DNA from: an uncultured Bacteroidales bacterium
GTDB lineage: Bacteria > Bacteroidota > Bacteroidia > Bacteroidales > UBA11471
Direction: 5' to 3'
Length of the DNA: 64,000 bases
NCBI GenBank assembly: GCA_947593515.1
Contig: CANQDQ010000002.1
Span: 179,471 to 243,470, forward strand
Part shown: positions 44,887 through 51,710 of the stretch, in pieces
Position numbering within the stretch: position 1 is the stretch's first letter
Layout: every line of letters starts with the position of its first letter
The notes under the pieces: model-generated
Told to the model about the DNA's origin: nothing
The model's input: the letters and a program-made list of their open reading frames with translations, nothing else
Database searches by the model: none
Translations under genes and position numbers: made by a program

Positions 44887-44962
44887 TCGGAAAACAACTG
44901 CACGATACACGCTTTTTCCGATTAGCCTCGTCGCATTTTATAAATGATTTATAATACCCGAC

Positions 44963-45000
44963 CACAAACAAAGCGGGGCGACCATACGTCGCCCCGCTGC
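44963..45000 (-). repeat. REP-like palindrome, copy 1 (terminator-like)
   Basis: Perfect 11-bp GC-rich arms (44972-44982 and 44988-44998) around a CATAC loop. Read on the minus strand the stem is followed by TTTGTTTGTGG, so it can terminate the minus-strand gene at 45057-45611. A second copy lies at 46001-46042 with the same left flank (CCACAAACAAAGCGGGGCGA) but the loop in the opposite orientation (GTATG). Confidence 0.8.
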
Positions 45001-45056
45001 AATGTAGCCAAGTCAACTACAAATTATTCCGCTATCTCTCGCCGCAAAAAAATAGA

Positions 45057-45611
45057 CTATAAATCTTCGCCATTTGCTTGATTGTATCCATTGTCATAGA
45101 ATAAGAGAATGCAATATGTTCCAGGTAAATACCCCTCAATTATCATAAACCAAACAAGTCTTTTGTCATAATCCGATGCCAAAAGTTGTTGGCAATAAAC
45201 GGCTTCATAACGTTTATTGTTTACACTCATTTCATATGATATATCCTCACTTTCAGGTATAGTAAAATCTTCCGATGATATATATTTAGGGTTATTGGCG
45301 AATTGGTTACAAAGATTGTTGAATCTTATTTTGATATTTGTTTCATCAATTTGATTTTTATCCACTACCATTATCCGGTAAACTTTATTGTTATTCGTTT
45401 TGACGAAGATATAAACGTCCTGTCCGTTAAATTCTCCCTCCAAATCAGAGACTTCACTTTTTTGAAATCCTTTTGCTTGGAGTTTCCGTATCATTTCGGT
45501 TTTACTCCCATCGACGGGAATCCCTAAAAATTGAGTAACCTCTTTCTCTTGCTGCGCATATACCGCTATCGCAAATGCGAGCAACATCGTAATCGACAGT
45601 AATTTTTTCAT
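45057..45611 (-). CDS. Secreted protein of unknown function
   Basis: A 184-residue protein. The ATG at 45611 gives a signal peptide (KKLLSITMLLAFAIAVYAQ), so it is exported to the periplasm or outer membrane. The mature part starts QEKEVTQFLGIPVDGSKTEMIRKLQAKGFQ, which resembles small Bacteroidota domains that compare two states of a peptide-like binding region, but I do not recognise a named family. It is more AT-rich than the housekeeping genes. It has a long leader containing a 122-nt hairpin and a terminator-like palindrome after its stop. Confidence 0.75.
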   Translation of the reverse strand: MKKLLSITMLLAFAIAVYAQQEKEVTQFLGIPVDGSKTEMIRKLQAKGFQKSEVSDLEGEFNGQDVYIFVKTNNNKVYRIMVVDKNQIDETNIKIRFNNLCNQFANNPKYISSEDFTIPESEDISYEMSVNNKRYEAVYCQQLLASDYDKRLVWFMIIEGYLPGTYCILLFYDNGYNQANGEDL

Positions 45612-45692
45612 GTCATTAAATTTTGTGTCCCCCAGCTGCCACAAGGACATTCATAGAATACAGCAAAAGCGTGGAACTGCAATGCCACGTCT
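45612..45692 (-). promoter_or_regulatory. Leader segment with second hairpin and motif shared with the LRR leader
   Basis: On the minus strand, CGTGG (45685-45689) can pair with CCACG (45670-45674). The same segment holds ACGCTTTTGC (45663-45672), TGGCAG (45636-45641) and GGGGG (45629-45633), similar in order to ACGCTCATGC, TGGCAG and GGGG in the LRR leader at 22802-22855. The 3' CCACGC could alternatively pair with GCGTGG of the long hairpin, giving mutually exclusive folds. Confidence 0.4.
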
Positions 45693-45814
45693 TAGTTTGA
45701 GGGTCGTAGGAAACCGTAGATACAGATATGGGGTATAGCAGTCCACGCTTATCGCGTGGAAGCCACTATGCTATCTTTGTATCTAATCTGAAAATTTCCT
45801 ACGTTTTCAAACTA
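45693..45814 (-). promoter_or_regulatory. 122-nt extended imperfect hairpin in the leader of the secreted-protein gene
   Basis: The two ends pair: TAGTTTGA (45693-45700) with TCAAACTA (45807-45814), GTAGGAAA (45706-45713) with TTTCCTAC (45795-45802), AGATACA (45718-45724) with its complement (45778-45784), GATA (45725-45728) with TATC (45772-45775), ATAG (45735-45738) with CTAT (45766-45769), and TCCACGC (45742-45748) with GCGTGGA (45754-45760) around a five-base loop. That is about 38 base pairs with small internal loops. It lies between a minus-strand promoter and the gene, so it would be transcribed as 5' UTR. Confidence 0.6.
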
Positions 45815-45877
45815 CAAGATAAGCATAACGCTTCTTTTTTCAATAATATGTCGGATAAAGCACCCTTTATCCGTTCA

Positions 45878-45885
45878 CAAAGATA
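45878..45885 (-). promoter_or_regulatory. -7 element upstream of the hairpin leader
   Basis: TATCTTTG on the minus strand; a TTTG (45900-45903) lies 14 bases upstream, a short spacing. Transcription would begin near 45870 and run through the long hairpin into 45611. Confidence 0.5.
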
Positions 45886-46000
45886 ATAAATTCCATAAAC
45901 AAAACGTGCGCAAAAGCCAAAATTTTGTTCTTGCCGAAAATAGACTGTTTCAATACGTCGAGTTTTTTCGTGCTTTTCACTTATCAATACTTTATACCGC

Positions 46001-46042
46001 CCACAAACAAAGCGGGGCGACGTATGGTCGCCCCGCTTTGTT
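46001..46042 (-). repeat. REP-like palindrome, copy 2 (terminator-like)
   Basis: Perfect 14-bp arms (46007-46020 and 46026-46039) around GTATG. Its core is the exact reverse complement of copy 1 at 44972-44998, while the flank to the left is the same. It lies just past the stop of the outer-membrane gene at 46077 and is T-rich on both outer sides, so it can terminate either strand. Confidence 0.8.
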
Positions 46043-46076
46043 TTTTATACCTGAATGGCAGAAATCAGCGCTGCAA

Positions 46077-47000: not shown

Positions 47001-47735
47001 TTATTTCATCTTTGATAAAACATATTGAAAAAACCAATTCGGCATTTGCTCTTGTTTCGGTGTCAAAGTCCGATTTTCATATTCTGCCAACAACTGCCAC
47101 ATTTCTTCACTATTATCAAAAAAATAGGCTCTGTCGCAAAGTGATAAAACATCAAATACATTCTCTAAGGATTTCGTGTATCGCTTCCTTATTTTTTCTT
47201 CCGGTACATCGTGCCCTCCTGAACAAACCCGTTGATAAACTCTTTTAATATTGATTTCAACATCTTTGGTCGAGATAAAATACAGATATATACGATACCC
47301 CAAAGATTTTGCCTGTTTGATATACTCAATCTTCCGGCTGTCAGACAATACCGTTTCTATCGTAAATTGGGGAACGACGCCTAACATATTTTGTCGAATG
47401 TATTCGGCTATAAAGGCAGAAATATATCCGTTGGCATATTGCTTCGGAATATACAAACAATTCTCTTTTATCTCCAATGCTTGTATGATAGAATCTGCAT
47501 CTTGCAATTTATCGAAAAAACTTGATTTTCTTAACGTTTTTACAAAAGACTCTTTATCGACATGAATTTCATAGTCATTAAAAGTCAATCCGCCAATAGC
47601 AAGTTTGTGTTGAATATCATCGGCATTAACAAAATATTTGCAACCGATTTTCTTATCAACGACATCGAAAATCGTTGATTTACCCGAACCATTCGGTCCT
47701 GCAAAAATTCTAAGCCGTTTTGTTGCCATTGTCAT
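47001..47735 (-). CDS. Zeta-toxin-like P-loop kinase
   Basis: A 244-residue protein with Walker A GPNGSGKST (residues 13-21), a conserved NADDIQHKLA block as in zeta toxins (substrate aspartates after the first strand) and ETVLSDSRKIEYIKQAKSLGYRIYLYFI in the middle. Zeta kinases phosphorylate UDP-N-acetylglucosamine or other metabolites and poison cell-wall synthesis. It starts inside the stop codon of a small upstream gene (ATGA overlap at 47732-47735), the usual layout of a toxin-antitoxin operon. A housekeeping P-loop kinase is an alternative reading. Confidence 0.82.
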   Translation of the reverse strand: MTMATKRLRIFAGPNGSGKSTIFDVVDKKIGCKYFVNADDIQHKLAIGGLTFNDYEIHVDKESFVKTLRKSSFFDKLQDADSIIQALEIKENCLYIPKQYANGYISAFIAEYIRQNMLGVVPQFTIETVLSDSRKIEYIKQAKSLGYRIYLYFISTKDVEINIKRVYQRVCSGGHDVPEEKIRKRYTKSLENVFDVLSLCDRAYFFDNSEEMWQLLAEYENRTLTPKQEQMPNWFFQYVLSKMK

Positions 47736-47986
47736 GGTAGCTGATATTCGCGTATCTCTATTTTAATATCTTTATTTTTGATATGTCCGATGATATACGG
47801 TTTATTATCTCTTATTTCCACGATATCGTGCTTTTGGGCAACGGTATAGGCTATATTATTTCGTTTTGCTTCGAGAATACCGGGATTTTGTCGCGGAAGA
47901 ATCGATTTTGTAAAGTTCCGAGATTCTTCACTCAACAATTTTACTTCCCTTTTACTCGGTTGTACATTTGTGTTTTTCCTTGCCAT
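47732..47986 (-). CDS. Putative antitoxin partner of the zeta-like kinase
   Basis: An 84-residue, basic protein (ARKNTNVQPSKREVKLLSEESRNFTKSILPRQNPG, then AYTVAQKHDIVEIRDNKPYIIGHI). No DNA-binding motif is certain and I do not recognise a family. Its stop overlaps the kinase start by four bases, so the two are translated together, and it is the promoter-proximal gene. Size and position are those of an antitoxin; the function is inferred only from context. Confidence 0.65.
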   Translation of the reverse strand: MARKNTNVQPSKREVKLLSEESRNFTKSILPRQNPGILEAKRNNIAYTVAQKHDIVEIRDNKPYIIGHIKNKDIKIEIREYQLP

Positions 47987-51439: not shown

Positions 51440-51665
51440 GGTTTACACGACAAGCGATCTTGGAGCAGAGTTGTTGTGCAGCTTTCACCCGAAGCCGTTT
51501 CCGACAATGGCGCACCCGGCAGGTCTTCTGACTTGTTCCCTTTTGCCCGCCTTCCCGATGTTTCAAAATCAGTGGCACTTCGGGCAAAATTTTGTTCCGG
51601 AATTTACAGCTACGGGGATAGTTCCTGACTTTCACAGGATTCCCTTTTCATCTCTGAATTCGAGA
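51440..51665 (-). promoter_or_regulatory. Cobalamin (B12) riboswitch upstream of nrdDG-purN
   Basis: Read on the minus strand the region shows the conserved cobalamin-aptamer order: GGGAATCCTGTGAAAGTCAGG, then CCCCGTAGCTGTAAA, the B12-box region GCCACTG (about 51569-51575), a CGGGAAGG block and the closing GTCAGAAGACCTGCC. The core spans about 51510-51660; the sequence down to about 51440 probably forms the expression platform before the nrdD start at 51394. B12 binding normally turns such leaders off, here shutting down a B12-independent reductase when B12 is available. Confidence 0.88.
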
Positions 51666-51678
51666 ACCGAATGCGATG

Positions 51679-51710
51679 CAAATATATAATCGGGGAAATT
51701 TATTTCCAAA
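51679..51710 (-). promoter_or_regulatory. Promoter of the riboswitch-nrdDG-purN transcript
   Basis: On the minus strand, TTTG (51707-51710), 20 bases, TATATTTG (51679-51686), just upstream of the aptamer. Confidence 0.75.

Follow-up and report, generated by a model that had tools for sequence, protein, structure and literature searches.

The question raised by this locus is what a long, almost complete hairpin is doing between a promoter and the start codon of a gene whose product has a signal-peptide-like start. The initial annotation of the window, the whole stretch of 64,000 nucleotides that was analyzed, had described about 38 bp of pairing at 45693-45814, placed between a minus-strand promoter (45878) and the gene at 45611, and had proposed either a new regulatory RNA or a MITE-like insertion. 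Both the hairpin and its placement were confirmed. On the minus strand, 45693-45814 has a predicted fold of -47.2 kcal/mol against a shuffle mean of -21.1 (z -8.09; 0 of 200 shuffles as good), with 43 pairs counted in six blocks of the printed structure; the promoter motif TATCTTTG occupies 45878-45885 and the ATG lies at 45611. The annotated interval, however, covers only P2 to P5, and the conserved unit extends further on both sides. The hairpin forms the central part of a longer unit (45611-45885, minus strand) in which promoter motif, 5' hairpin, core (168 nt), P6 hairpin and ATG follow one another. We take TATCTTTG to be the motif known as the Bacteroidetes-type promoter. Two folds are predicted for the core: fold A, which would be a long hairpin closed by P1 that leaves the segment CAGUUCC free, and fold B, which would consist of two hairpins, J.J45 and c.d. 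The features of the unit are as follows.

45878..45885, minus strand: promoter -7 box TATCTTTG; TAnnTTTG lies upstream in most copies.
45852..45873, minus strand: P0, the 5' hairpin directly past the promoter; its arms covary (z -4.8, 78 copies).
45667..45834, minus strand: RNA-family core, 168 nt (model R1, 173.7 bits).
45828..45834, minus strand: a, the 5' strand of P1, pairing with d (a.d z -4.0, 18 dissimilar copies).
45814..45826, minus strand: J, partner of J45 in the two-hairpin fold (J.J45 z -7.6, 18 dissimilar copies).
45807..45814 (5') and 45693..45700 (3'), minus strand: the strands of P2; two-sided changes at 7 of 8 pairs.
45795..45803 (5') and 45705..45713 (3'), minus strand: the strands of P3; two-sided changes at 4 of 9 pairs, 2 invariant.
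45768..45780, minus strand: J45, partner of J in fold B and of the 3'-side J54 in fold A; J.J45 z -7.6, J45.J54 z -6.2.
45754..45759, minus strand: b, the 5' arm of the apical hairpin P5 (from fold and alignment).
45743..45749, minus strand: c (AGCGTGG), the 3' arm of the apical hairpin and alternative partner of d (c.d z -6.3).
45673..45679, minus strand: CAGTTCC, the 5' side of PK2, overlapping the c.d pairing; two-sided changes at 6 of 7 pairs (z -4.9).
45667..45674, minus strand: d (CCACGCTT), the 3' strand of P1, followed in the family by a U-rich tract (from tract counts and the P1 test).
45633..45642, minus strand: the 3' side of PK2, inside the P6 loop (from pair changes).
45627..45648, minus strand: P6, the hairpin 5' of the start codon (stem z -10.1, n=62; two-sided changes at 6 of 6 pairs).
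45057..45611, minus strand: the downstream gene, 184 aa, with a signal-peptide-like start; no Pfam match.

The surroundings contain further features. Near-identical GC-rich, terminator-like hairpins at 44955-45005 and 45995-46045 flank leader and gene, with their inner loop in opposite orientation, and are possible borders of an insertion or inversion. A gene pair at 47001-47986 (minus strand) presumably encodes a zeta-toxin-type kinase, judging from a GPNGSGKST motif, and a small upstream partner; its first gene has no match in the corresponding region of genome G004. A cobalamin riboswitch is found at 51501-51686 (minus strand, 112.4 bits).

A BLASTN search with 45680-45830 identified four places in the genome of origin, one of them being just a 5' fragment; of 60 genomes, 8 gave matches, including its own. 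A covariance model, R1, built from a 14-copy alignment, matched 109 of 393 genomes of the order, a scan in which only seven candidates per genome were scored, so that copy numbers there are lower bounds. The order is taken to be Bacteroidales, G027, a genome of the same order, sharing 39 of 39 sampled 50-mers with a Barnesiella record. In a sample of the phylum, 22 of 395 genomes were matched, 19 of these belonging to other orders of the same class. The 26 genomes chosen as carriers held between 1 and 16 copies each at E≤1e-3. Scanning named genomes for the 5' pattern gave at least 116 stretches; among the matches listed (80), 79 bear titles of taxa that we take to be Bacteroidales and one is titled Staphylococcus. 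The latter, a 2.6-Mb scaffold (L116), carries a Bacteroidales-type copy together with a lipoprotein gene, and its title looks wrong. The 5' pattern was also present in 13 viral stretches, and the element on seven plasmid and three phage records, one phage match comprising the promoter part only.

Incomplete copies were seen as well. The match in phage record MT836705.1 (4331-4389, 88%) is limited to the promoter and P0 part, which suggests that this unit also exists alone. At three loci (L004, L023 and L024) the promoter and P0 are followed by the beginning of the core, and the remainder is absent; these seem to be leaders that have lost the core, and L004 precedes a lipoprotein family that elsewhere carries the full leader.

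For comparative analysis, 98 of 116 model matches were used, leaving out 14 on the opposite strand, 3 that were cut off and 1 weak match. A second set of 47 matches contributed 44, after exclusion of 2 opposite-strand matches and 1 partial match. Removal of 3 more copies without flanks gave 139 copies, reduced to 78 at 85% identity.

The position of these copies is regular. Of the 139 copies, 124 have TAnnTTTG within the 90 nt preceding them, as against 6.8% of shuffles; the motif stands a median of 52 nt ahead of the core. When ORFs of 50 aa or more are considered, the first ATG lies 40-70 nt past the core in 79 of the 101 canonical copies and in 18 of the 38 divergent ones, whereas the same search on the diverging side, used as a control, returned 2 of 139. 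Among the fold A pair cells of 98 unique rows, GU/UG combinations number 537 and AC/CA 54, an excess pointing to an RNA of the window's minus strand, although this alignment was fitted to structure and part of the excess may come from the fitting. Judged by sequence, sense strand, 5' UTR position and ties to promoter and start codon are those of a cis-regulatory leader. A four-codon upstream ORF (AUG-CUU-AUC-UUG-stop) in the J segment, present in 76 of 101 canonical copies, is not claimed, 80 loci having been selected by a pattern containing that ATG; stops in it are no commoner than column composition predicts (0.78 versus 0.73).

With promoter upstream and start codon downstream at fixed distances, the MITE-like insertion envisaged in the initial annotation was not borne out. 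Several copies per genome, their occurrence on plasmids, phage records and viral contigs, and hybrids with identical 5' and differing 3' halves would all suit a self-spreading element, MITE-like or recombining as single-stranded DNA, but the copies hold a fixed position between promoter and ATG, favor GU over AC on one strand and carry a pseudoknot that reaches the start region. For these three reasons we rejected a MITE or DNA recombination site, which we regard as very improbable. The copies are not dispersed independently of host genes, and neither integron attC motif (R' GTTRRRY, R'' RYYYAAC) occurs in the window core. The same distances bear on a small-RNA precursor that would be released from the 5' end and act in trans. 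Some divergent copies do have a T-run directly past d and no near ORF; with an ATG 40-70 nt downstream in 97 of 139 copies and a family pseudoknot into the start-codon region, however, we consider such a precursor improbable.

That pseudoknot is part of fold A, in which the free CAGUUCC would pair with the P6 loop to form PK2; P6 ends about 16 nt 5' of the window start codon. In the 14-copy alignment, compensatory changes affect both sides of 18 of the 47 pairs of fold A. With MAFFT, 36 canonical copies were aligned without structure fitting, and in this alignment 23 of the 30 pairs of P2, P3, PK2 and the P6 stem have two-sided changes (177 cells versus a shuffled mean of 66); none of 500 shuffles reached any of five measures, and slid versions dropped to 33-54% paired. 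Alignment A6 combined the window copy with 35 of the 44 canonical representatives; hybrids, outliers and two further copies were excluded. P6 is the weakest helix, with 60.6% of its cells paired, and its stability is unremarkable (median z -0.36). A conserved secondary structure with compensatory changes, as looked for in a leader RNA, was found. The PK2 partner of L233, a divergent copy, overlaps an ATG. Extending P1 into the upstream A-rich stretch gave no clear pairing excess past the first core base. A local GTGG/CCAC hairpin before d, whose 5' arm varies without matching changes as judged by eye, was replaced by c.d and PK2.

The proposal of a new regulatory RNA thus gains support from one-strand covariation, promoter and start-codon spacing, two-sided pair changes and the lack of a match in Rfam 15, where no family overlaps the element at the gathering threshold or at E up to 5 or 1.

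Fold B draws on the same strands. J45 pairs with J or J54, c with d or b, d with c or a, and CAGUUCC with the c.d region or P6. Since c.d would occupy both the d strand and CAGUUCC, PK2 would be blocked; J.J45 would be excluded while the long helix stands, because J and J45 lie on either side of the 5' strands of P2-P4, an argument from geometry. When the duplex energies of 78 copies were compared with permuted ones, z was -13.1 for J.J45, -9.4 for c.d and -11.0 for PK2, with one of two controls reaching -3.9 in the divergent subset. A set of 18 dissimilar copies, among which there is no pairwise BLASTN match at E<1e-8, gave -12.1 for P2P3, -7.6 for J.J45, -6.3 for c.d, -6.2 for J45.J54, -4.9 for PK2 and -4.0 for a.d, while five controls fell between -1.2 and +0.8. 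Within the canonical copies fold B hardly varies (90.9% of its cells are paired, versus at most 52.3% in slid versions); 4 of 21 pairs covary there and as high a paired fraction arises in 26 of 500 shuffles, so that shuffles are not clearly beaten, and the canonical set is weakened further by J having been fixed by the search pattern in L082-L161. The weight of the test therefore falls on the divergent copies. Conserved, mutually exclusive folds were thus found, weakly so within the canonical copies.

The initial annotation had also suggested that the CCACGC/GCGTGG segments of two hairpins could exchange partners. The data support this idea, as c (AGCGTGG, 45743-45749) covaries with d (CCACGCTT, 45667-45674) in divergent relatives. 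Fold A alone gives no reason for c and d to vary together. A sequence-specific protein that reads both the AGCGTGG and CCACGCT words could also tie c to d. Natural hybrids provide a further view. L062a and L062b are identical in their 5' halves and 69% identical in their 3' halves, and for L062b, as for L065, the predicted fold is the two hairpins of fold B; L067 and L080 form a similar pair (100% and 70%), L080 being without predicted fold B. As predicted folds, these hybrids support fold B as a real fold.

Fold A is nevertheless the more stable, with -57.5 versus -52.6 kcal/mol for the two halves summed in the window and median values of -61.4 versus -50.1 kcal/mol in 44 canonical copies. 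All 44 canonical copies and 33 of the 34 divergent ones share this order of stability. This advantage suggests that fold B, if used, would likely be an early cotranscriptional state or be held by a factor, and fold B may be only a folding intermediate. The strong stability of fold A, together with 77 unrelated downstream gene families without a common Pfam family, would also agree with a passive leader, a stable 5' structure for mRNA protection or ribosome spacing that does not switch; the second exclusive fold and the covariation of the pseudoknot exceed what a stabilizer needs, and we think this explanation unlikely.

A further alternative is transcription attenuation. Here, d and the U-rich tract would form an intrinsic terminator when d is paired with c (or a), the other fold allowing read-through. 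The c.d helix is GC-rich, and the 12 nt after d contain at least 8 T in 21 of the 44 canonical copies and 22 of the 34 divergent ones, as against 3-4% of shuffles. Just 10 of the 44 canonical copies, however, have a T-run of at least 5 (divergent copies, 20 of 34), a helix precedes the tract in both folds, and the conservation of PK2 and P6, which lie beyond the tract, implies that the read-through RNA matters. We therefore hold attenuation to be possible but doubtful; from the sequences, it is a live rival, and a stronger one for the divergent copies.

The 120 downstream proteins fall into 77 families, and a Pfam scan of representatives of 66 of these 77 yielded 54 Pfam families, the commonest of which, LRR_5, has 3 members; no common Pfam family, and in that sense no shared function, appeared among the 66 representatives. 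According to a rough heuristic, N-termini like those of secreted proteins or lipoproteins are enriched: 76 of the 120 downstream proteins have one, compared with 187 among 740 further ORFs at these loci. One copy, on a Bacteroides uniformis plasmid, precedes blaMUN-1. The window gene product (45057-45611, 184 aa) gave no match in the Pfam scan. Its relatives in the genus include one with the leader (L264) and one with a divergent leader (L270), while four others (L266-L269) have no model match and no leader visible in the sequence. Because some relatives carry the leader and others none, it is an add-on. Conservation only upstream of one gene family, which had been named as a mark of a cis-regulatory RNA, was not observed, and the 77 families do not share the downstream pathway expected of a riboswitch.

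Taken together, the leader RNA is real, widespread and unclassified, the family and its two conserved folds being well supported by comparative sequence analysis. It is probably a bistable mRNA leader that controls translation or early termination of mixed accessory genes. In full, the explanation we favor, and consider fairly probable, is that the window holds a copy of an RNA family outside Rfam, a 5' leader of unrelated Bacteroidia mRNAs with its own promoter and two exclusive folds, and that switching between them alters expression. The leader would be transcribed from this promoter, and a move between folds A and B in the cell would change expression of the downstream gene, most likely through P6 being docked at, or released from, the start region at the translation step, with termination at the U-rich tract past d as a possible further route. 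More tentatively, the leader could be a class-wide, horizontally exchanged cassette of promoter and RNA switch that senses a common cell state and fits almost any acquired gene; accessory genes, coding mostly for envelope proteins and also for a beta-lactamase, would then be subject to a single post-transcriptional control, whichever member of the Bacteroidia carries them.

Gut Bacteroidia are abundant. Their translation starts generally lack Shine-Dalgarno sequences, which is established and also noted in PMC9723704. On both counts, a large leader with a pseudoknot just 5' of the start codon would be a way into message control in these bacteria. The leader is common to dozens of unrelated genes, blaMUN-1 among them, and has no Rfam entry; a literature search covering few subscription journals returned no recognizable description of it. 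If the leader does switch, a single signal would govern a large part of the accessory surface in these bacteria, and the module might become a genetic part for them.

Among known systems, riboswitches and other cis-acting leaders such as the T-box and the purine riboswitch resemble the leader in their 5' UTR location, in strand exchange between two folds and in having a pseudoknot near the expression region. The leader differs from the T-box and purine riboswitch in that dozens of unrelated gene families take the place of one pathway, and it is not known to bind a ligand. Flavo-1 (RF01705) and FopS (RF04319) are likewise multicopy structured RNAs of Bacteroidota, but they occupy other places in the loci and do not overlap the element; FopS was observed at L089:1865-1931 and L094:4662-4728, within about 5 kb of a leader in two Bacteroides genomes. 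Two palindromic candidates among the structured RNAs of Bacteroidetes, HMP2_4205 (132 bp) and HMP_4078 (109 bp), are treated as terminators or REP-like in the passages considered (PMC8040213). Like the leader's central hairpin, these are long palindromic hairpins; those passages mention neither a leader nor a pseudoknot or second fold. Judged by their descriptions, one of the two may correspond to part of the central hairpin.
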